Below are positions 49,776-63,790 of a stretch of DNA of 64,000 nucleotides, one piece after another (within the stretch, counting starts at the first letter, position 1; each line of letters opens with the position of its first letter). The position numbers and the translations under genes are program-made. The notes beneath the pieces were generated by a model. It did not search any database. It saw only the letters and a program-made list of their open reading frames with translations, and had not been told where the DNA came from. The DNA comes from Methylomonas sp. ZR1 (lineage in GTDB: Bacteria > Pseudomonadota > Gammaproteobacteria > Methylococcales > Methylomonadaceae): assembly GCF_013141865.1 (NCBI RefSeq), contig NZ_RCST01000001.1:3596001-3660000 (forward strand), read 5' to 3'.

Positions 49776-50627
49776 GGGGCTGTTGCCATTTTGAAACGAT
49801 AGCCTTGAAATCGAACGGCTCTGCCTCATTGATTGATTTTTCAATCAGAAGACAAGTGAGCTATGCCGCGACAAATGTTTACGGATGCATACTGGAATAA
49901 ATTCAAAGCCATCCTGTTAAGCCTGGGGATTTATGACAAGCCTTCGCTCAGGCAAACGGTAGAAGGGATTTTTTATCGCATGCGAGTCGGCTGCCCCTGG
50001 CGAGACCTGCCTGCCACGTTTGGTAAGTGGAATGCAGTCTACAAACGGTTTAATGCGTGGTCACTGCAAGAAAAACTGATGGGCATCTTTCGAGGCCTGG
50101 TTGTGGCACCGGATTTGGAATGGACCTTTATTGACGGCAGTATCGTGAAAGCGCATCAGCATAGTAGCGGTGCGGCTCATGAACAGGATGCCGCGATTGG
50201 GAAATCCGTTGCGGGTAACACCACGAAAATCCATATGGCCGTTGATGCCTGTGGGCTGCCTATTCATTTCTCAATCACCGGTGGTGAAGTCCATGACTGC
50301 AAAGAAGCGCCGGAATTAGTGGCTAAACTGCCTTTGGCTGACTACACGGTCGCTGACAAAGGCTATGACAGTGAACCTCTACGGATTCAAATTCGAGAGA
50401 AAGGGAGTGTCCCTATCATTCCTAGAAAACAAAATTCAATCGTCGGGAATGACGGAATGGATTGGTGCCTCTACCAATATCGCCACCTCGTTGAAAATGT
50501 CTTTGCGCGATTGAAACATTTCAGAGCCATCGCGACGCGATATGACAAATTGAAACGCAATTTTGAAGGCGTTGTCGCTTTGGCCTGCGCTTTTATTTGG
50601 TTACCCATGTAAAACGGCAACAGCCCC
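49776..50627 (+). mobile_element. IS5 family element, IS427-like
   Basis: 852 bp with terminal inverted repeats starting GGGGCTGTTGCC, matching at 17 of 18 positions at the two ends and flanked by TA on each side. It carries one transposase gene. It sits between the M48 gene and pncC, with its right end inside the pncC stop codon. The copy looks intact and potentially active. Confidence 0.88.
49863..50612 (+). CDS. IS5-family transposase
   Basis: 249 residues, DDE transposase. VGCPWRDLPATFG is the N-terminal family motif. The acidic residues lie in TFIDGSIVKAH, ADKGYDSE and HLVENVFARLKHFR. A single continuous reading frame covers the gene, whereas many IS427 relatives need a frameshift. Confidence 0.93.
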   Translation: MPRQMFTDAYWNKFKAILLSLGIYDKPSLRQTVEGIFYRMRVGCPWRDLPATFGKWNAVYKRFNAWSLQEKLMGIFRGLVVAPDLEWTFIDGSIVKAHQHSSGAAHEQDAAIGKSVAGNTTKIHMAVDACGLPIHFSITGGEVHDCKEAPELVAKLPLADYTVADKGYDSEPLRIQIREKGSVPIIPRKQNSIVGNDGMDWCLYQYRHLVENVFARLKHFRAIATRYDKLKRNFEGVVALACAFIWLPM

Positions 50628-51118
50628 TAGGCGTTTTCCAGCATGTGTAAAAGTTGCTGCAAGCAAAACAGCGTTGCCTGCTGGCGTATCGACTGCCGGT
50701 CGCCGCTGAATTGTTTCTGCAAACAAGCGCCGTTAGCGCCGCGCATTTGCCAGGCGATAAATACGGTTCCGACCGGCTTTACCGGCGTGCCGCCATCCGG
50801 TCCGGCAATACCGGTGACGGCCAAAGCCAGATCGGCCAGGCTATTGGTCAAAGTGCCCGCCACCATTTCCAAAGCAGTCTCTTCGCTAACCGCCCCCACT
50901 CTCGCCAAAGTCTCCGGTTTGACACCCAGCATATCGATTTTGGCATCGTTGCTGTAGGTGACGAAACCCCGGTCAAACCATCCGGAACTGCCCGGCACAT
51001 CAGTAATTGCCTTGGCAATGCCGCCGCCGGTGCAGGATTCCGCCAAAGCCAGACGTAGACTCAGAGTGTTTAGTCGATTGCCGAGCGCTTCGGCGAGTAA
51101 ATAGCTTGGATCGTGCAT
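50627..51118 (-). CDS. pncC: Nicotinamide-nucleotide amidase (CinA C-terminal family)
   Basis: 163 residues. AESCTGGGIAKAITDVPGSSGWF and GIAGPDGGTPVKPVGTV are the family motifs. It deamidates NMN to nicotinate mononucleotide in pyridine-nucleotide recycling. Its stop codon straddles the junction with the IS427-like element. Confidence 0.92.
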   Translation of the reverse strand: MHDPSYLLAEALGNRLNTLSLRLALAESCTGGGIAKAITDVPGSSGWFDRGFVTYSNDAKIDMLGVKPETLARVGAVSEETALEMVAGTLTNSLADLALAVTGIAGPDGGTPVKPVGTVFIAWQMRGANGACLQKQFSGDRQSIRQQATLFCLQQLLHMLENA

Positions 51119-51203
51119 AGCAGTCCGGTTAGCTGATACGGCATCAAGCCGAGAAGGGATTTTGTTGCAGCGAAAAGGTCATCGCTGCAACAGACGGGCC
51201 AAT

Positions 51204-51782
51204 TTACTTAGGTAATTTGGCGATTTCCGAGACTTTTTCGAAATCGGCGCCGACGCTGATGATAAAGCTGGTCACTTGCTCGATACTCATATCCGATTTA
51301 ACCACTTTCGATTCGTGCACAATCACCGCAAACCCTGAAGTAGGATTGGGCGATGTCGGCACAAACAACACATAACGGTCGTCGGTCTTGTTGGTTACGT
51401 AGGCAGGCACCCAAATGCCCTCCTTTGGATATTCGATGTACACCACTTCGCGCGGCTCTTGCAATTGATGGCCGGCAATCATGTTCACCAGTTTCTTGGT
51501 CACCCGGTAAATCGTACTTAACAGCGGGATGCGCTCGATCAGGTGTTCGAACATCGCGATGATGGAAAACCGGCCCAGACTAACCCGACTCCCCACATAG
51601 GTAATGGTCGCGAAACTGGCGGCAAACAACAAAAATGTCACCAGATAATTATCGGAATAACCGTAAACGAATTGAAACAAATCGGTAAGTCGGTCTTTCA
51701 CGAACAACACGATTTGTACAATCACCATAACCGGTATAAACGCCAGAATGCCGATCAGGGTGTGGTTAAGGATTTTCTTCAT
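51204..51782 (-). CDS. DUF502-family membrane protein
   Basis: 192 residues from ATG 51782. Two transmembrane helices near the N-terminus (about 8-28 and 45-65) are followed by IPLLSTIYRVTKKL and VLFVPTSPNPTSGF, the conserved core of DUF502. Longer frames to 51929 lack homology. Function unknown. Confidence 0.85.
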   Translation of the reverse strand: MKKILNHTLIGILAFIPVMVIVQIVLFVKDRLTDLFQFVYGYSDNYLVTFLLFAASFATITYVGSRVSLGRFSIIAMFEHLIERIPLLSTIYRVTKKLVNMIAGHQLQEPREVVYIEYPKEGIWVPAYVTNKTDDRYVLFVPTSPNPTSGFAVIVHESKVVKSDMSIEQVTSFIISVGADFEKVSEIAKLPK

Positions 51783-51894
51783 GATGCGCCTACCTTTATT
51801 AATTATAGTTGTTAGGAAACTAGGTTTTAGCAGAGTTACGCCGGTTAAGGAAGTCTCGATGCATGCATTACCTGCGAAACACCCCGAGCCGCAC

Positions 51895-52986
51895 TCAAGG
51901 TAACATTTTATAAAGGCCGCGCGTGGCAATCGCCATCAGCGGCAGCATTACTCCCGTCAGGCACAGCAGCGCGCTCAAGGTCGTCAGACTGGCGCTGGCA
52001 TCCCAAATAGTCAAAGAACTATTTAAAGAGATATTGGACGGCGCCAAGAACGGAAACAAGGACACTCCCATGGTTAAAATCACCATCACCACCATCACGG
52101 CACTCGCCAGCAACGCCCAATGCGCTCTATCCAGACGGGACAACACCAACGCGGCTATCCCGCAGACAAAGGCCAAAGCAGGCAAGGCCCATAGAGCCGG
52201 TTCGTGCTCGTAATTGTCCAGCCACAAACCGTCGCCGCGTTTCACAAATTTGGTCAATGGGTTGGAAACCCCATTCGGCATAATCTCGGTGCTGACGTGA
52301 TAACCCTCCAGATGAGTAATCCAACCGCCGGCCAACGCAAACAACACCAAAAATGCCAGACCACTGGACATGGCCAGCGCCTTACTGCGCTGGTATAGCT
52401 CGTCTTGGCTATGCGTTTGCAGATAAATCGCGCCATGCACTGCCAATAAGGCTACGCAGGTAGCGCCGACCAAGGACGCAAACGGACTGAACAGCCCGGA
52501 AAAACTGCCCAGAAAAGCAATGTGCATATCACTGGCTAAATGAAACGGCACGCCTTTCAACAGATTGCCGGCCATCACCCCCAACAGCGCCGCCGGCAAC
52601 AAGCCACAAATAAACAAGGCCTTATCCCATTTTTTCAGACTATCCTCGCGCGTCACGCTAGCTCTGAAATACCAGCCCAAAGGCCGCACGAATAGCGATA
52701 ACACCATCAACAATAGCAAAGGTTGAAAGCTGGCAAACGTCGCCGCATACACTGTCGGCCAACCGACAAACAATACACCGATAGTTACCAATAGCCAGAC
52801 CTGATTCCCGGCGCTGGTTGGCGCCAACCTGGCGACCAGCTCGGCGCGCTGCACCTCGGAGGCATGCAAAAAGGGCAACAACAGGCTGACGCCGATCTCG
52901 ATACCGCTGCTCAGCACAAAACCGATCACGAACAAGCCCAACACGCCCCAACAGATCAAGCGCAGCATTTCATAATCAAGCAACAT
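51895..52986 (-). CDS. cydB: Cytochrome bd-like subunit II, altered acidic residues
   Basis: 363 residues, about eight transmembrane helices. The N-terminus and AGNQVW follow CydB, as do AIYLQTHSQDELYQRS and PFLAPSNISLNSSLTIWDA. Against E. coli CydB from memory, Asp29 is Glu (SSGIEIG) and Asp58 is Ala (TSAGNQVW). Asp58 is one of the acidic residues placed in proton uptake. The start overlaps the cydA-like stop by 11 bp. The two encode a pair that deviates together from the standard oxidase. No cydX-like gene follows. Confidence 0.8.
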   Translation of the reverse strand: MLLDYEMLRLICWGVLGLFVIGFVLSSGIEIGVSLLLPFLHASEVQRAELVARLAPTSAGNQVWLLVTIGVLFVGWPTVYAATFASFQPLLLLMVLSLFVRPLGWYFRASVTREDSLKKWDKALFICGLLPAALLGVMAGNLLKGVPFHLASDMHIAFLGSFSGLFSPFASLVGATCVALLAVHGAIYLQTHSQDELYQRSKALAMSSGLAFLVLFALAGGWITHLEGYHVSTEIMPNGVSNPLTKFVKRGDGLWLDNYEHEPALWALPALAFVCGIAALVLSRLDRAHWALLASAVMVVMVILTMGVSLFPFLAPSNISLNSSLTIWDASASLTTLSALLCLTGVMLPLMAIATRGLYKMLP

Positions 52987-54382
52987 AACTCGGCTCCTGG
53001 TTAATCGGCAACGCGGTGGCGCAGCCCTGCCCGATAAACTTTAAAGTTAACATGACGGCCAACGCCAGCAGGCCGGCATAGGTCAAACCGTAAGCCGCCA
53101 GACTGACCGCCAGATCGGCGACAGCCAATGTGGATACCCCTTGCCAGATGGGCAGCATATCGGCCACCAGCCAAGGCTGCCGGCCGAACTCCGAGATAAA
53201 CCAGCCGCTGGCACTTGCCAACCACGGCAACGGTAAAGCGTAAACACTGGCCTTGAATAACCAGGCATGCTGCCACCCGACGATATTGACCGCGTTTGCC
53301 GCTACAAACAGCAGCGCCAGTAAAGCGCCGGCCGCAATCATCAGTCTATATCCCCAATACAAACGCCCGCTAGCCGGCACGCTGGCGCTGACGGCTTGTT
53401 CTATCTGCGCTGGACTGGCATCGGTCACGCTCTCCCGCCAACGCTTCAGCAATAAGCCATAACCCAAATCAACTTTGGCGGCGGCAAATGCCGCCAACAG
53501 TTCCGGCTCTTTTTTGTCGTCGCGCAATTCTTGCAACAGCGCGTAAGCTTTTATGCCATTGCCTATGCGCTGACGATTTTGTGCCAAAATCGCAGCATTG
53601 GGCAGACCGTTAATGGCCGCCAATTTGTTATGCTGCATCGCGCCGGCGCCATAAACACTGGCATCGCCTATCGCCATCGTAGCGATCACACTCGCCAAAC
53701 CCAAAGCGGCCGCCATCCGGTAAGAACGTTGCGCCAATTCGGTTTCGCGCTGCTTCAGTAAATAGTAAGCGCTGATAGCCAACACAAAACCAGCCGCCAC
53801 CACATAACCGGCCAGCAAACTATGCACAAATTTCGCCCAAGCCAGCGGATTGCTCAGCACCAACGACACATCGAGCAACTCCAGGCGCAGCGTTTGGGTG
53901 TTCAATTCCGCACCCACGGGATTTTGCATCCAGCCGCTGGCGATCAGAAAACCGAAAAAACTCAAGTGACAGCCAATCGCGATTAGCCAAGTTACCGCCA
54001 AATGTGTGCCTTTACCCAGGCGCTGCCAGCCAAATAAAAACCAGCCCAGGCCGTTGGCAGCTATAAACAAACCGGCAAACCCCAACAATAAAGGCAAGGC
54101 AAACACATCGCCGACATAATGCGCAAAATACGACCAATGAGAGCCGAATTGACTCGCCATCACCAGAGAAGAAGCCATATTCAAGCCAAAACCAATCGCG
54201 AACAACTTTCCCCAGAACTGCGTGATACGTTGATAAACGCTCTGCCCGCTGAATACAAACCAGGAATCCATAGCCGCCAACAAGAGCGATAAACCCAGCG
54301 TCAAAGGTACGAATAGAAAATATTGCACCGCATGTAGCGCAAACTGCGCCCGCGATAACTCAACAACCGTTTCGGAAATCAT
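52976..54382 (-). CDS. cydA: Cytochrome bd-like subunit I lacking high-spin haem ligands
   Basis: 468 residues from ATG 54382, preceded by GAGGAG. The fold and most landmarks of CydA are kept: FLFVPLTLG, WGKLF, GWMQNP, KFVHSLLAGY (haem b558 His187), MIAAG (b558 Met348), GRQPW and the late Q-loop segment DLGYGLLLKRW. Compared with E. coli CydA recalled from memory, His19 is Tyr21 (a His sits four residues earlier), Glu99 and Glu107 are missing (LPLLLGFAGLFIAAN), and Glu257 is Asn. About 50 residues of the N-terminal Q-loop are deleted. A normal haem d site is therefore doubtful. Confidence 0.8.
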   Translation of the reverse strand: MISETVVELSRAQFALHAVQYFLFVPLTLGLSLLLAAMDSWFVFSGQSVYQRITQFWGKLFAIGFGLNMASSLVMASQFGSHWSYFAHYVGDVFALPLLLGFAGLFIAANGLGWFLFGWQRLGKGTHLAVTWLIAIGCHLSFFGFLIASGWMQNPVGAELNTQTLRLELLDVSLVLSNPLAWAKFVHSLLAGYVVAAGFVLAISAYYLLKQRETELAQRSYRMAAALGLASVIATMAIGDASVYGAGAMQHNKLAAINGLPNAAILAQNRQRIGNGIKAYALLQELRDDKKEPELLAAFAAAKVDLGYGLLLKRWRESVTDASPAQIEQAVSASVPASGRLYWGYRLMIAAGALLALLFVAANAVNIVGWQHAWLFKASVYALPLPWLASASGWFISEFGRQPWLVADMLPIWQGVSTLAVADLAVSLAAYGLTYAGLLALAVMLTLKFIGQGCATALPINQEPSYVA

Positions 54383-54547
54383 CCCCACTCCTCGGTCAAG
54401 CTCAAAAATGCGGGCAATTATAGAGTTATCCGCTTGTTTGTCTGCGATTTTTCTCGACCGATTCGCATTAAAACCCGCGTGAAAAACTGGAGAATACAGA
54501 CGACTGATATACACTTTTCAACTTACAAGTACACATTCCAAAACCTC

Positions 54548-56689
54548 ATGGGCTTTACTCCGCGCCACATCGTTGGACTGAAAATAGTCGCTATAGCCCT
54601 GCTCTACGCCATGCTGGCCAAACTGGTATTGGCTTTTTTTTCCGACAACGGCAATGTCACGCTGGTTTGGTTTCCAGCCGGCCTGGGGATGGCCACTTTT
54701 CTGTTGGGCGGCAAGCGCTATTGGCCGGGCGTATTCATCGGCGCGTTTCTGGCCGGCATGCTGGTCGGCGACTCCTGGTTAATCTCCGCCTGCATCGCTA
54801 CCGGCAATATCCTGGAATCCTGGCTTGGCGCCTGGCTACTGCTTGGCAACCCAGGCTTTTCGCTATCGCTACGGCACCCGCGGGATTTTGCCTGGCTGAC
54901 TTTGACAGGCATCATCGCCGCCTGTTTCAGCGCACTGATCGGCCCCATGACCTTGTTTTTAAGCAAGTATCTGCCTGCCGAAGCCCTGCTGCCCAGTATG
55001 CGGCACTGGTGGATGGCCGACGTATTGGGAATCGCCTTGGTCACGCCTTTAATTCTGATCTGGCGACACTGGCCGAAAGACTGGTTCGCCCCCAAACGCT
55101 TACTGGAAACGCTGGCCTTCATAGCAACGAGTTTTTTGAGCGGCCAGGCGGTGTTTTTAAGCTGGTTTCCCAACCTGCTGAACGCTTACGGCGAAACCTA
55201 TTGGGCCTTCCTGTTTGTGGTTTGGGCGGCTGTCAGATTCGGCCGTCACGGCGTGCTGCTTTTGGTGACCATGACCGCCATTCAATCCCTGTGGGGATTG
55301 CAACATCAGTTGGGCGCATTCGCCACCATACACCTGCAAAGCGGCCTGCTAAACATCTGGTTTTACCTGTTCATCCTGGCTAGCGTGGGCATACCGTTGG
55401 CCCTGACTTTATTCCATCAACAACAAATCAACCAGGCCTTACAACAAAGTGAGGCCCGCTTGAGTTTTGCATTGGAAACCATCGATACCGGCGCCTGGGA
55501 TCTGGATTTGCAAGATTATTCGGTGCAACGCACGGCCATACACGATCAAATTTTCGGCTACAGCCAACTGCTGCCGCATTGGACCTATCATACATTTCTC
55601 GGCCATGTCACACCGGAACATCGAGATATGGTCAATGCCGGTTTCCAAACTGCCTGCACCCAACACAGCAATTGGAATTTCGAATGCCGCATCCGCCGCA
55701 TCGACGGCGCAATCCGCTGGATTCGCGGCTCCGGTTGCCACCAAATCGGCAATAGCCCGCGCATGACCGGTATTCTGCAAGACATCACGGCACACAAATT
55801 GGCTGAAGAAGATCGGCAACTAGGGATGTTGTTTTACCAAAATTGCAGCGAAGCGATGATGATCACCGAAGCGGATGCCACCATCGTCTCGATTAACCCG
55901 GCATTCAGTCGCATTACCGGTTACTCCGCCGAAGAAATAATCGGCAAGAACGCCCGGATTCTGGGCTCCGGCCGGCATGACGATAGTTTTTTTCAATCCA
56001 TGTGGCAAATCATCAATAGCAAAGGAAAATGGCAGGGCGAAATCTGGAATCGACGTAAAAACGGCGAACTTTATGTCGAGCAGCTCAACATCAACACCAT
56101 TTTCGACCGCAACGGACTACCGCTAAAGCGTATTGGCCTGTTTTTCGACATCACCCAACGTAAGCTTGGTGAAGAACAACTGTGGAAACAGGTTAATTTA
56201 GATCCGCTCACGGGTGTTGGCAATCGCCGCCTGTTTTACGACAGACTGGAGCAAGACATTAAAAAAGCGCAGCGCGGCGGCTGGTTTTTGGCGTTGCTGG
56301 TGGTGGACATCGAGCACTTCAAAGACATTAACGAGCGCTTTGGTTATGCGCAAGGCGACAGCATTTTGCAGGAAGCCGCGCAGCGCGTGCTGGCGAATGT
56401 GCGGGAAACCGATTTGGTGGCGCGAATGGATGGTGCTGAATTTGCGGTCATCCTTACCGAGCTGGAAAAAACCGACAGCACTGAGCGCGTCGCGCAATTA
56501 ATTATCGAAAAACTCGCCGAACCGTTTACGCTGGAACACGATACAGCCCAACTCAATTGCCGTATCGGTATCGCCATCTGCCCTGACCATGCCGACAATA
56601 CCGAAGCGCTGAAACAAGCCGCTATGAATGCCGCCAAAAAAGCCGCCTCACAAACTTACCGATTCGCCAATCCGCCGACCGCGTTTTAA
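54548..56689 (+). CDS. MASE1-PAS-PAS protein with degenerate GGDEF domain
   Basis: 713 residues from ATG 54548; upstream in-frame codons from 54434 are less likely. A MASE1 membrane sensor (about 1-290, eight hydrophobic segments, LVWFPAGLG) precedes two PAS domains (about 305-425 and 430-550) and a C-terminal GGDEF fold. The active-site loop reads MDGAEF, with Asp and Ala at positions usually Gly and Asp/Glu, so cyclase activity is doubtful. It may be a regulator or c-di-GMP/GTP sensor. It is divergent from the cydA-like gene. Confidence 0.82.
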   Translation: MGFTPRHIVGLKIVAIALLYAMLAKLVLAFFSDNGNVTLVWFPAGLGMATFLLGGKRYWPGVFIGAFLAGMLVGDSWLISACIATGNILESWLGAWLLLGNPGFSLSLRHPRDFAWLTLTGIIAACFSALIGPMTLFLSKYLPAEALLPSMRHWWMADVLGIALVTPLILIWRHWPKDWFAPKRLLETLAFIATSFLSGQAVFLSWFPNLLNAYGETYWAFLFVVWAAVRFGRHGVLLLVTMTAIQSLWGLQHQLGAFATIHLQSGLLNIWFYLFILASVGIPLALTLFHQQQINQALQQSEARLSFALETIDTGAWDLDLQDYSVQRTAIHDQIFGYSQLLPHWTYHTFLGHVTPEHRDMVNAGFQTACTQHSNWNFECRIRRIDGAIRWIRGSGCHQIGNSPRMTGILQDITAHKLAEEDRQLGMLFYQNCSEAMMITEADATIVSINPAFSRITGYSAEEIIGKNARILGSGRHDDSFFQSMWQIINSKGKWQGEIWNRRKNGELYVEQLNINTIFDRNGLPLKRIGLFFDITQRKLGEEQLWKQVNLDPLTGVGNRRLFYDRLEQDIKKAQRGGWFLALLVVDIEHFKDINERFGYAQGDSILQEAAQRVLANVRETDLVARMDGAEFAVILTELEKTDSTERVAQLIIEKLAEPFTLEHDTAQLNCRIGIAICPDHADNTEALKQAAMNAAKKAASQTYRFANPPTAF

Positions 56690-56707: not shown

Positions 56708-57982
56708 TCAACACACGCGCTGCCGCGGAAACACGCAGCGGAATTTACTGCCTCTGCCCAGTTGGCTTTCAATGTCCAGCTTGGCATCGTGCCTGACCAA
56801 CACATGCTTGACGATGGCCAGCCCCAAACCCGTGCCGGGGATTTTTTGATTGCGTTTCACTTCGGCGCGGTAAAAGCGTTCGGTAATCCGGGGAATATCC
56901 ACACTGGAGATGCCGTCGCCAAAATCTTCCACTTCAAAATAAACGCTGCCGTCGGGCTTGCCCCGCCAACTCACTTTAACCGGCGAGCTAGGCTGCGAAT
57001 ATTTCATGGCATTGACCAACAGATTGCTGAAAGCGCTACGCAACTCCTCCATATCGCCACGCACATTGGCTCGGCTATCCAACACCAGCTCGACCCGGCG
57101 CTCATCCTTTTCCAACAAATCGCTTTCCTGGCAAACCTGCACGAGCAAATCAGGAATATTCACGCATTCGAATTTCTTGGTTTTGCTCTCCAGGCGCGCC
57201 AGTAGCAGTAAATCATCGATCAAGGCTTGCATGCGCTCGGTCTGTGCCGCCATGTTTTGGAATGAGCGCGTGTAAGGACTGCTACCGTCGTCAAGTTCCT
57301 GCAAGGTCTCCAGATAACCACGCAACACGGTAATCGGCGTGCGTAATTCGTGCGAGACATTGGCCACAAAGTCGGTACGCATCCGTTCGATATTCTTTAG
57401 ATGGGTGACATCCTGCGCCATCAACAAACGTAAGCCGGCACCGTAAGGGAAGATGCCGATTTGCAAAATCATGTTTTCGTTGATAGGCGAGGGAATACAA
57501 ACCTTGTTGTGGTAATCCTGATCCTTCAGGTACTGAATAAACAGCGGGTGCCGGACCAAGTTAGGAATCCGCTGTCCGTTATCGGAACGCTTCAGGCCCA
57601 GATAGTCATAGGCCACTTTGTTGCTCCACTCGATTTCGCCATAGCTGCCTAGTACCACAATGGCGTCAGGCAAGGCGCTGGTCGATTTGCGAAACCCATC
57701 CAGCATTTTGCCCAACTTCTTCTTCTGGCGTTTTTGGCTTTTGCGAATTTTATAAAAGTGGTAGTAGATGTCGCCCCAGATCCCTTTAAAATCGGGACGC
57801 TCTCCTCGGCCGCCCTGGCTTAACCAACGCTCCAGGCGGCTCACGTTGATCGATTGCTTAATGTAGAGAAAAAGGGTGATTGCCCATAAGAAATAGCTGA
57901 GGTGCCCGACAATAAAACTCAGCAGTAAAGCCGGTATCAGTAAAGCAATAGCAATATTTATTTCCCGCTGCCAACGCTGCAT
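56708..57982 (-). CDS. phoR: Phosphate-regulon sensor kinase
   Basis: 424 residues. Two N-terminal hydrophobic segments, a PAS-like region (about 90-190), then HisKA with SHELRTPITVL and a HATPase domain (NLLVNAMKYS, DFGDGIS, GTGLGLAIVKHV). Short spacing (6 bp) to phoB supports the PhoR assignment. It phosphorylates PhoB when phosphate is limiting. It is convergent with the MASE1 gene, 18 bp apart. Confidence 0.92.
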   Translation of the reverse strand: MQRWQREINIAIALLIPALLLSFIVGHLSYFLWAITLFLYIKQSINVSRLERWLSQGGRGERPDFKGIWGDIYYHFYKIRKSQKRQKKKLGKMLDGFRKSTSALPDAIVVLGSYGEIEWSNKVAYDYLGLKRSDNGQRIPNLVRHPLFIQYLKDQDYHNKVCIPSPINENMILQIGIFPYGAGLRLLMAQDVTHLKNIERMRTDFVANVSHELRTPITVLRGYLETLQELDDGSSPYTRSFQNMAAQTERMQALIDDLLLLARLESKTKKFECVNIPDLLVQVCQESDLLEKDERRVELVLDSRANVRGDMEELRSAFSNLLVNAMKYSQPSSPVKVSWRGKPDGSVYFEVEDFGDGISSVDIPRITERFYRAEVKRNQKIPGTGLGLAIVKHVLVRHDAKLDIESQLGRGSKFRCVFPRQRVC

Positions 57983-57988
57983 GAATAA

Positions 57989-58687
57989 TCAGTTTGCCAT
58001 CGAAAAACGGTAACCGAATCCGCGCACGGTCTGGATCAATTCCTCGCGGCCGTATTCGGCCAGAATTTTGCGCAAGCGGCGAATATGCACATCCACGGTA
58101 CGCTCCTCTATGTACACGCTACGCCCCCAGACCTGATCCAGCAAATGGGTTCGACTGTAGACCTTGTCGGGATTGGTCATAAAAAACTGCATCAATCTAA
58201 ACTCGGTAGGACTGACTTCCAGACTGCGGCCGGCGATAGTCAGTTTGTGTTGCTCGGCATCCAAAGTGAGATCGCCGACGCTGAGCTGTCCGGATTCCGA
58301 CAACTTACCGCTGCGACGCATCACGGCCTTGATCCGGGCGATCAGTTCTTTCGGCGAAAAAGGCTTGGTCACATAATCGTCCGCACCAATTTCCAAGCCG
58401 CGAATTTTGTCTTCTTCCTCGCCGCGCGCGGTGAGCAAAATAATAGGCAACTCCTTGTAACCCGGCTCATTTTTCAAGCGTCTGGCCAATTCCACGCCGC
58501 TGATCCCCGGCAGCATCCAGTCCAGAATAATCAAATCCACCATATTATCGGCCAAACTCTCCCGGGCCTGCTCGGCACTGCCAACGGCGATCACCGTCAA
58601 ATTGGCCTGTTCCAGCACCATGACCAGCATCTCCCTGATCGCTTCTTCGTCTTCCACGACCAGGATTTTCAAGTTCGACATAAGCAT
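57989..58687 (-). CDS. phoB: Phosphate-regulon response regulator
   Basis: 232 residues. The receiver domain has VVEDEEAIRE, the phospho-acceptor LDWMLPG and the switch lysine in VTKPFSPKEL. The OmpR/PhoB winged-helix domain ends with YIEERTVDVHIRRLRK and VRGFGYRF. It binds Pho boxes, one candidate being at 32226-32243. Start at 58687 or 58681. Confidence 0.94.
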   Translation of the reverse strand: MLMSNLKILVVEDEEAIREMLVMVLEQANLTVIAVGSAEQARESLADNMVDLIILDWMLPGISGVELARRLKNEPGYKELPIILLTARGEEEDKIRGLEIGADDYVTKPFSPKELIARIKAVMRRSGKLSESGQLSVGDLTLDAEQHKLTIAGRSLEVSPTEFRLMQFFMTNPDKVYSRTHLLDQVWGRSVYIEERTVDVHIRRLRKILAEYGREELIQTVRGFGYRFSMAN

Positions 58688-58773: not shown

Positions 58774-60774
58774 CTATCGTCCCTTGCCAGAGTCCGGCAT
58801 CGGCCGCGCCGTCACGCCGCTATCCCCAACAGGAGCGGCAAAGGCGTCCGACACTAAAGTACTTATATTGCCGCCGCTCAGCGCTTCCAGAAACGCTACA
58901 AGATCAGCGATTTCCCGATCAGACAAGCCCAGCGGCTTGAGCAAGGGCGACAAATTTTCGTTGGCTACGCCGCCTTGATTATAAAACTTCAGCACCCCCG
59001 CCAGACTAGGCAAGGAACCGTTATGCATATAAGGCGCGCTGAGCGCGACGTTGCGTAGCGACGGGGTTTTGTAAGCCCAGCGGTCGGCGGGATTTTGACT
59101 GACCTCGTAATAACCCAAATCGCCGGGTTTCTCGGTATTTACACCTTTCAGATGCTCGCTATCCACCTCCACAAATACGCCCGGCGCCACTTGCACTCTT
59201 TGTTTTTCCGGCGACTTTTGCATGGATTCGGCATAGCCAATACCGGTGTTATGGCGTTTTTGATCGGTAAATAAGGCAGACTTGTCGCCAATCACGTGAC
59301 AACTGCTGCAAGCGGCTTTACCGGTAAACAAAGCAAAACCCCGTTGCGCCGCCTCGCTAATCGCCGTTTTTTGTTTGCCAAAATACCAGCGGTCGAATGG
59401 CGAATCGGCGGCATTTAACGTGCGCTGATAGCTAGCCAAGGCCTGACCGATGGTTTCCATCGTCGGCCCTTTGTTAAAGGCTTTTTCAAACAGTCCGCGA
59501 TAATCGGCGCTGGCTTTTAGCTTTTCCACCACATAGCCAATTGACGGATTCGCCATCTCGTTGTGCGCCAGCAATGGGCCCCAGGCTTGTTGCTCCAGGC
59601 TGTTCTCTCGACCATCGTGAAACAGCAATTGCGCGTAACCTACGTTATACAAAGACGGGCTATTGCGCCGCACACTGCGCCCTTCAATACCCACCGCCGT
59701 GGTCATTTCGTTATTACTAAAGCCTTGTTCCGGGATGTGGCAGATGGCACAGGAAAAGGTATTGTTCAGGGAGAGCCGCCGGTCGAAGAACAGCTTGCGA
59801 CCCAACGCGATCTTGGCAGGCGTGAGCGGGTTGTCTTTGGGCACCGGTAATTTCGGCAAACCCAGCGGCGGTTGTTGCGCAAACGCCAGCAAATTAGCCG
59901 GCTGACCCATACGTTGCGCCAGCGCCAGCGAGCGGGTTTGGTAATCGGCTTGCTGGTAGTTTTGTTTATTGTCGCCAGGCTGGAACAACATTTCGGGCTT
60001 GACTGCTAGCACTGCGGCGACTTGCGGCCTTGCGTCTGCCAGTAGCGTTTTCACATCGTTGATCAGCGTGTCGGCATGCAGAAAATCCACGCTATAAATA
60101 TTGCGGACGTTTTTATCCTTATCGATCAGATACACTCGCAGCAAATGCGAAAACGTACCGGTAAACTGGCCTTTGTCGTCGTAGACTTTTTGCACATTTT
60201 GCTGGTAGCCGTCGAGGATGGGCTGCAAGCTGGCCTCGTCTTTGGTGGTCAGAAATTGCCAATCGAAATCGCCGGTTTTAAATCCCTCGCCGTACTGGCG
60301 CATCATTTCCGGGGTGTCCTGGGCCGGGTTAAAGCTCAACGTCAACAATCTGAGTTTGTCGGCCAATTCCGGCTGTTTTTGTAATTGCCGGCTGATTTTG
60401 TGCAACACCTGAGTTGCCAGCGGGCAGCCGTTGACGTCGCTGCAGGCCGCGTAAATGAAGCTCAGCAATACCAGCTTGCCCCCCATTAAGTCGTGGAGGT
60501 GTTTGGGCTGGTTGTTGGTGGTTAGGATTTCGCCGTCGGCGGCTTGGGTGATGACTGGCAGGGTGTAGGTGCCGGGTTTTGCGGGTTCGAAAGGTAATGC
60601 GGTGTAGCCGGGGGCGATGGGTTTGGTTTCTTGAGCTTGGCTTAATGGCGTTATCAAGTTAAAGAGAAAGCACAGGAACCCTATCGTTCCCATGCTCCAG
60701 CGTGGGAATGCCGCTGCGGACGCTCTAGCGTCCGCTTTCAGACAAAGTAGACTGAGGCGATAAGGAAGTTTCAT
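58774..60774 (-). CDS. SCO1/SenC - MauG-type cytochrome peroxidase fusion
   Basis: 666 residues. After a long N-terminal leader, residues about 55-260 are a SCO domain with the copper-binding CSDVNGC and a downstream SHLLRVYLID histidine. Residues about 310-660 are a di-haem peroxidase/MauG domain with the haem sites CAICH and CSSCH. SCO and MauG genes normally flank methanethiol oxidase genes, where they are thought to mature the copper enzyme. Here they are one polypeptide. The leader contains an in-frame repeat insertion (residues about 13-31). A start at 60693 is the alternative. Confidence 0.82.
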   Translation of the reverse strand: MKLPYRLSLLCLKADARASAAAFPRWSMGTIGFLCFLFNLITPLSQAQETKPIAPGYTALPFEPAKPGTYTLPVITQAADGEILTTNNQPKHLHDLMGGKLVLLSFIYAACSDVNGCPLATQVLHKISRQLQKQPELADKLRLLTLSFNPAQDTPEMMRQYGEGFKTGDFDWQFLTTKDEASLQPILDGYQQNVQKVYDDKGQFTGTFSHLLRVYLIDKDKNVRNIYSVDFLHADTLINDVKTLLADARPQVAAVLAVKPEMLFQPGDNKQNYQQADYQTRSLALAQRMGQPANLLAFAQQPPLGLPKLPVPKDNPLTPAKIALGRKLFFDRRLSLNNTFSCAICHIPEQGFSNNEMTTAVGIEGRSVRRNSPSLYNVGYAQLLFHDGRENSLEQQAWGPLLAHNEMANPSIGYVVEKLKASADYRGLFEKAFNKGPTMETIGQALASYQRTLNAADSPFDRWYFGKQKTAISEAAQRGFALFTGKAACSSCHVIGDKSALFTDQKRHNTGIGYAESMQKSPEKQRVQVAPGVFVEVDSEHLKGVNTEKPGDLGYYEVSQNPADRWAYKTPSLRNVALSAPYMHNGSLPSLAGVLKFYNQGGVANENLSPLLKPLGLSDREIADLVAFLEALSGGNISTLVSDAFAAPVGDSGVTARPMPDSGKGR
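60685..60734 (-). repeat. REP-like palindromic repeat inside the SCO-MauG leader
   Basis: CGTTCCCATGCTCCAGCGTG followed by GGAATGC and a second stem GGACGCTCTAGCGTCC. The same unit occurs at 63688-63766 upstream of mtoX. It lies in frame within the predicted signal peptide of the SCO-MauG gene. Confidence 0.75.
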
Positions 60775-63687: not shown

Positions 63688-63790
63688 CGTTCCCACGCTC
63701 CAGCGTGGGAATGCATGTTGAACCGCTCCTGCGGTTCGGGACGCTGGAGCGTCCCTAGCTCGGTTCCAACGCCGGAGCGTGGGAACCATA
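63688..63790. repeat. REP-like palindromic repeat upstream of mtoX
   Basis: CGTTCCCACGCTCCAGCGTG with a GGGACGCTGGAGCGTCCC stem and a further CGGAGCGTGGGAACC copy. It is the same unit found inside the SCO-MauG leader. Confidence 0.75.

Follow-up and report, generated by a model that had tools for sequence, protein, structure and literature searches.

A cytochrome bd-like gene pair kept under selection across Methylomonas, probably without normal oxidase activity

Methylomonas sp. ZR1 carries a cydA- and cydB-like gene pair in the 64,000-nucleotide stretch of DNA analysed here (the window; positions are counted from its first base). Orthologues of the pair occur throughout the genus, they are under selection, and they usually share their genome with an ordinary cytochrome bd oxidase; all of this lay beyond the reach of an earlier note made from the window's letters. 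Judging from the sequences, we think that it is probably a selected pseudo-oxidase, i.e., a descendant of bd-I that has been kept without normal quinol:O2 turnover and whose function would reside in the scaffold and in CydB. This suggests that an old machine has been put to new use in the genus.

The gene pair in the window

The cydA-like gene (52976-54382, minus strand) encodes 468 amino acids with a bd subunit I fold and a degenerate oxidase site, and the cydB-like gene (51895-52986, minus strand) encodes 363 amino acids without the proton-path residues. The two frames, which the earlier note had placed correctly, overlap by 11 bases. Both subunits belong to the cytochrome bd superfamily by sequence (PF01654 and PF02322), and a model of CydA alone (mean pLDDT 67.5) kept the bd fold, with 42-44% identity to two bd-I structure entries over structurally aligned residues. 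A frame or annotation error was rejected, because both frames are intact and the orthologues repeat the same changes.

A DUF502 membrane protein gene (51204..51782, minus strand; start chosen by eye at MKKI) adjoins cydB downstream. Upstream, a MASE1-PAS-GGDEF gene (54434..56689, plus strand; true start uncertain), present in 10 of the 29 wider loci, separates cydA from phoR (56708..57982, minus strand; above the TIGR02966 cut-off), with phoB (57989..58687, minus strand; above the TIGR02154 cut-off) further upstream. In 24 of the 29 wider loci, phoB and phoR share the strand of cydA and precede it (phoR-cydA gap 92-3927 bases), and DUF502, again on the same strand, is found in 15 of them. Beyond phoB lies a gene (58774-60774, minus strand) for a 666-residue protein that combines a SCO1/SenC domain with a MauG/MbnH-type di-haem peroxidase.

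Residues were numbered after, and compared with, the E. coli K-12 CydAB sequences. The alignment bore out a series of losses claimed in the earlier note: window CydA has Tyr21 (codon 54320..54322, minus strand, computed from the residue number) in place of His19, a one-residue gap and then Gly in place of Glu99, Ala for Glu107 and Asn for Glu257, and the Q-loop is shorter by about 46 residues (query 258/264 = E. coli 257/309), close to the roughly 50 claimed. The b558 ligands His186 and Met393 and the GRQPW motif are retained, as had been stated, and in CydB Asp29 has indeed become Glu and Asp58 Ala (position 58 is Glu in 9 of the 12 working enzymes compared). We also found Glu74 replaced by Ala in CydA, a change not listed before, and Lys252, Arg391, Trp441, Glu445 and Arg448 retained; in CydB, Trp57 is Ser, Asp105 is Tyr, Lys109 is Ser and Tyr379 is absent. 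These CydB changes, like the lack of CydX described below, are further losses that the earlier note did not name. We take His19 to be the conserved His that binds haem d, and we presume that Arg391 and Arg448 have roles.

The losses touch parts that the enzyme uses for electrons, protons and oxygen. PMC8951039 gives a conserved His as the ligand of haem d and a Glu as that of b595; the haem d site (His19 with Glu99) is missing from the window, and the b595 ligand Glu445 is present. PMC6853902 places Glu99 and Glu74 at the edge of the O2 cavity of haem d and has protons travel through Lys109, Asp105 and Tyr379 of CydB to Asp58; the title of a further paper assigns CydA Glu107 to this path. The window pair has lost the path (an acid at 58, Asp105, Lys109 and Tyr379 in CydB and Glu107 in CydA). 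An excerpt of PMC13189123 defines the Q-loop lid as Glu259-Gly306, with Tyr243 and Arg298 as quinol contacts. Because the Q-loop deletion covers the lid, lid and Arg298 are gone from window CydA, and the pair has no long Q-loop with lid 259-306.

Distribution, ancestry and selection

The orthologous degenerate pair occurs in 35 of the 37 sampled Methylomonas genomes, each with a full-length short cydA copy (30 at loci L003-L032 and five more); the two remaining genomes had an ordinary copy only (G009) or only fragments (G027). Some losses are uniform. Among the 35 copies, Glu74, Glu107 and Arg298 of CydA are never present and Glu257 is present once; CydB never has Asp29, Trp57, Asp105, Lys109, Tyr379 or an acid at 58; and the Q-loop lid is deleted in all. 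The haem ligands vary: His19 is kept in 24 copies, Glu99 in 17 (with Asp in one more), His186 in 33, Met393 in 29 and Glu445 in 29. All five stand together in 11 copies (L020-L029 and L113) and both b558 ligands in 29, and no single ligand is present in every copy. Of the six genomes lacking one or both b558 ligands, G015 (L115) has lost His186, Met393 and Glu445 and kept His19 and Glu99; G033, G035, G032 and G024 are without Met393, Trp441 and Glu445; and the very divergent G034 (L117), whose alignment is unsure, is without His19, His186 and Met393. Since the lid and the proton path are lost everywhere and the haem ligands only in part of the genus, the former probably went first and the ligands later.

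Multiple alignment could have revealed that the ligands were conserved after all. Instead, the window lacks His19 and Glu99, and the losses are not due to chance, as they recur in syntenic orthologues. The change of His19 to Tyr, real in the window, is a late step affecting part of the window's subclade and not the family hallmark for which it might have been taken, given the 24 copies that retain His. Functional residues were kept at a mean frequency of 0.38 (n = 22) versus 0.58 (n = 279) for other invariants of the working enzymes, with p-values (0.005, 0.007) that are too favourable, the list having been drawn up after the first tables and partly from background knowledge. Both His186 and Met393 were kept better than the average working-enzyme invariant.

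When 311 genomes of the order were compared, the matches listed, which extend to about 1e-76, included unbroken short copies only in Methylomonas and in G233 and G236, two genomes of one other genus. The copy in G236 (L158:7307-8665) is a lone degenerate CydA without an adjacent CydB.

We placed the short CydA on a tree of 55 CydA sequences, an analysis proposed in the earlier note. The 30 short ones (28 from the genus, and L157 and L158 from another) formed one side of a branch with support of 99/97 and joined the ordinary Methylococcales enzymes at a group of six, the branch to the other 19 rows having support of 95/87. Six ordinary Methylomonas CydA sat elsewhere, in a group (100/100) that includes E. 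coli, Shewanella and further gammaproteobacteria; a long-branch warning applies, above all to the pairing of L115 with L117, and the inner order is unsure. DUF502 follows cydAB in four of the nearest six loci (L041, L045, L051 and L061), and it was found in no others of the 25 ordinary loci that do not belong to the named Methylomonas-type set (Shewanella supplies one of these loci, and several contigs end soon after cydB). Tree and synteny together indicate that the degenerate pair descends from a Methylococcales bd-I. A recent duplication of the working oxidase within the genus was rejected, the six placed ordinary Methylomonas CydA being on another branch.

The simplest reading is that the old bd-I lost its duties and another CydABX took over. 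Ordinary CydA or its remains were found in 34 of the 35 pair-bearing genomes, and without an internal stop in 32. A single TAG interrupts the ordinary CydA of G022 (C43:18624-20108); in G016, whose completeness is rated 100%, all that is left of one is a C-terminal remnant; and in G023 (95% complete) no ordinary CydA was found. The latter two both keep the degenerate pair.

In a pattern search, a CydX-like sequence was present at all 25 working loci scanned (the ordinary-CydA loci L163, L167, L168 and L169 were left out), and a recognisable CydX at none of the 30 degenerate loci in the fetched sequence, 29 of which were informative (L150 ends inside cydB); one unlike, misplaced match occurred in L154. 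A CydX-like peptide might still be encoded elsewhere or be too diverged for the search pattern. At two ordinary loci (L051:10708-11301 and L061:4450-5043), CydX forms the start of a frame of about 197 amino acids, i.e., it carries a long extension.

The dN/dS of cydA was 0.034-0.244, with a median of 0.138 (46 pairs, each of similar length and from the same naming block of loci, dS 0.03-1.0, trimmed starts), where pairs share branches and the top value rests on 24 changes. For seven genome pairs, the ratio was 0.019-0.244 for the short cydB and 0.029-0.088 for the working copies, calculated on stop-to-stop frames that include some untranslated bases. In the degenerate pair, CydB is now the subunit under the heavier sequence constraint: it was more alike than CydA in 279 of 300 comparisons (25 of the 35 loci; near-copies, L031, which is truncated, and L117, an outlier, were set aside), but in none of 36 in either of two working groups, each of nine loci.

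Of 34 short copies, 33 have a perfect TATAAT placed 39-41 bases ahead of the start, the exception being L028; L113, which the start pattern had missed, has it at -44. Before ordinary starts it was found in 1 of 15 (L049). In the window it belongs to a promoter-like CAGACA-16-TATAAT (54417..54444, minus strand; -10 box at -40 from the cydA start codon). A consensus promoter scan of 51100-54700 gave 1 site versus 3.0 in shuffled sequence, which is not above chance, and because of this only the conservation of TATAAT counts; the box is a putative working promoter. A Pho box before cydA was unsupported (best simple score 10/14), and no FNR-like site was found by simple score in 17 upstream stretches. 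The dN/dS values, open frames and conserved TATAAT rule out a pseudogene.

Possible functions

The pair would fold as a CydA-CydB membrane heterodimer that is unable to couple quinol oxidation to O2 reduction in the normal manner. Loss of quinol-driven oxygen reduction, one of two readings offered in the earlier note, is strongly supported at the level of residues, and on more grounds than were given there, by the missing lid, proton path, O2-site glutamates and CydX; the other, a site rearranged around a shifted His, is not supported (see below). Haem b558, and perhaps b595, is predicted to be carried still in most species, including that of the window, and probably not in six. Because the haem ligands vary across the genus and constraint is heavier on CydB, a genus-wide function seems to reside in the scaffold and CydB more than in electron flow through the haems. 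Most likely, the pair would be a membrane complex, occupied by quinone or lipid and centred on CydB, that serves in sensing, regulation or stabilisation, for example by sensing or buffering the quinone pool; E. coli CydB holds a structural ubiquinone, according to a passage of PMC6853902.

The place behind phoBR is at most suggestive with regard to function. Expression of CydB is reported to be controlled by SenX3-RegX3, a system with a phosphate-responsive role (PMC3116866), and phosphate starvation is a condition in which E. coli expresses bd-II (PMC8585947). A literature search for PhoR and quinones yielded nothing usable. A more specific proposal, that the pair is a CydB-centred quinone sensor or membrane regulator that needs no one haem, possibly acts with PhoBR and was kept while lineages lost different ligands, appears unlikely in that full form. 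The function could also differ between lineages.

The main rival would be an electron relay: in most members, electrons from quinol or another donor would enter at b558 (with b595) and pass to a partner other than O2. We consider this possible but doubtful. His186, Met393, Lys252, Trp441 and Glu445 are present in all 17 loci of the window's subclade, and Tyr243, the quinol contact in the excerpt of PMC13189123, is Tyr in 15 of them. In most members, haem binding seems to have kept its importance, because the b558 ligands are well kept, above the average invariant, and 11 of the 35 copies keep all five ligands. A possible partner would be the product of the di-haem gene of MauG/SCO type beyond phoB, which is found in 8 of the 29 wider loci as well as in the window. 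However, the lid with Arg298 is deleted in every copy, Glu257 survives in only one and Tyr243 in 16 of 35, and the frames are still open in the six orthologues without His186 and/or Met393. A role for the pair as a non-catalytic partner or regulator of the cell's ordinary CydABX or other oxidases we judge quite improbable. The bd fold kept in the CydA model, the near-constant company of an ordinary CydA or its remains, and the dimers in which E. coli bd-I also occurs (an excerpt of PMC13189123) would agree with it. In that excerpt, however, the dimer forms through CydX, which was not found here, and the pair persists in G016 with its remnant, in G023 with no ordinary copy and in G022, where the ordinary copy has a TAG.

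Slow decay of a functionless leftover is very improbable. The pair does evolve faster than its neighbours and than the working copy, and the G034 member is very degenerate, but the frames are open and full-length in 35 of the 37 genomes, dN/dS is well below 1 and TATAAT is conserved, all of which speaks against decay. The pocket might have been rebuilt in the window's subclade, i.e., the 17 loci L003-L019 without an acid at 99. All 17 share Ala108, Cys137, His138, Gly143 and Phe144. This His (His139 in the window, at E. coli Asn138; codon 53966..53968, minus strand), preceded by the invariant Cys, occurs in 5 of the 18 other genus rows, and Cys137, Gly143 and Phe144 in none of those 18 or of 12 working enzymes. 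Such shared new residues go beyond plain decay and may mark a re-used pocket; in E. coli, Ile144 roofs the O2 cavity (PMC6853902). That Cys137-His138, Gly143 and Phe144 bind a haem in a changed geometry, forming a new gas or oxygen site, is nevertheless hardly to be expected: the proton path is gone, other lineages do without these residues, and a metagenomic member of the subclade (P0008) has Leu at 144. The earlier note had proposed as replacement ligand a His moved by four residues, but His stands at E. coli position 15 in only 9 of the 37 short CydA and shows no link with the Tyr, since P0008, P0010, P0011, P0013 and P0014 have Tyr with Asn or Thr there. If a site was rebuilt, Cys137-His138 would be the better candidate.

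Relation to known systems

The pair resembles the E. coli CydABX bd-I (qOR1, long Q-loop) in fold, gene order, b558 ligands and Glu445/Trp441/GRQPW, and differs from it in that the window pair lacks lid 259-306, Glu74, Glu99, Glu107, His19, the CydB proton path and a recognisable CydX. Its nearest working relatives on the tree are ordinary Methylococcales cydABX, with which it shares the DUF502 neighbour in four cases of the nearest six; unlike the degenerate pair, those tabulated have the catalytic residues and CydX. Archaeal CydAA' (in its CydA') and the non-quinol bd families, reportedly old and separate families, likewise belong to the bd superfamily and deviate from the pattern of the quinol oxidases. 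The degenerate pair would differ from them in coming from a proteobacterial bd-I and in mostly keeping CydB; the 55-sequence tree took in none of their reference sequences.

Searches of open-licence papers turned up no description of a respiratory pseudo-enzyme of two subunits in which constraint has shifted to the one without haem. Databases name these proteins cytochrome ubiquinol oxidase subunits, and high-affinity oxidase genes have been taken as a sign of microaerobic respiration (in part of PMC8407424); to read such respiration from this pair would lead to error in most members of a methane-oxidising genus. Nature has here provided a series of orthologues from which parts of a bd oxidase have been removed stepwise, from copies with all five ligands to copies with few. 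It can therefore be tested directly on them which residues bind which haem, and what a CydA-CydB scaffold is capable of in the absence of normal oxygen chemistry.

Minor observations concern the neighbourhood of the pair. A di-haem gene of the SCO1/SenC-MauG/MbnH type beyond phoB recurs in the 8 wider loci mentioned above. The window also has a tRNA-like gene without assigned identity (ARAGORN; 63692-63784, plus strand) and a transposase-like gene (recognized by eye; 49863-50612, plus strand) that has no match in the relatives L128-L131 and lies between an M48 peptidase gene and cinA.
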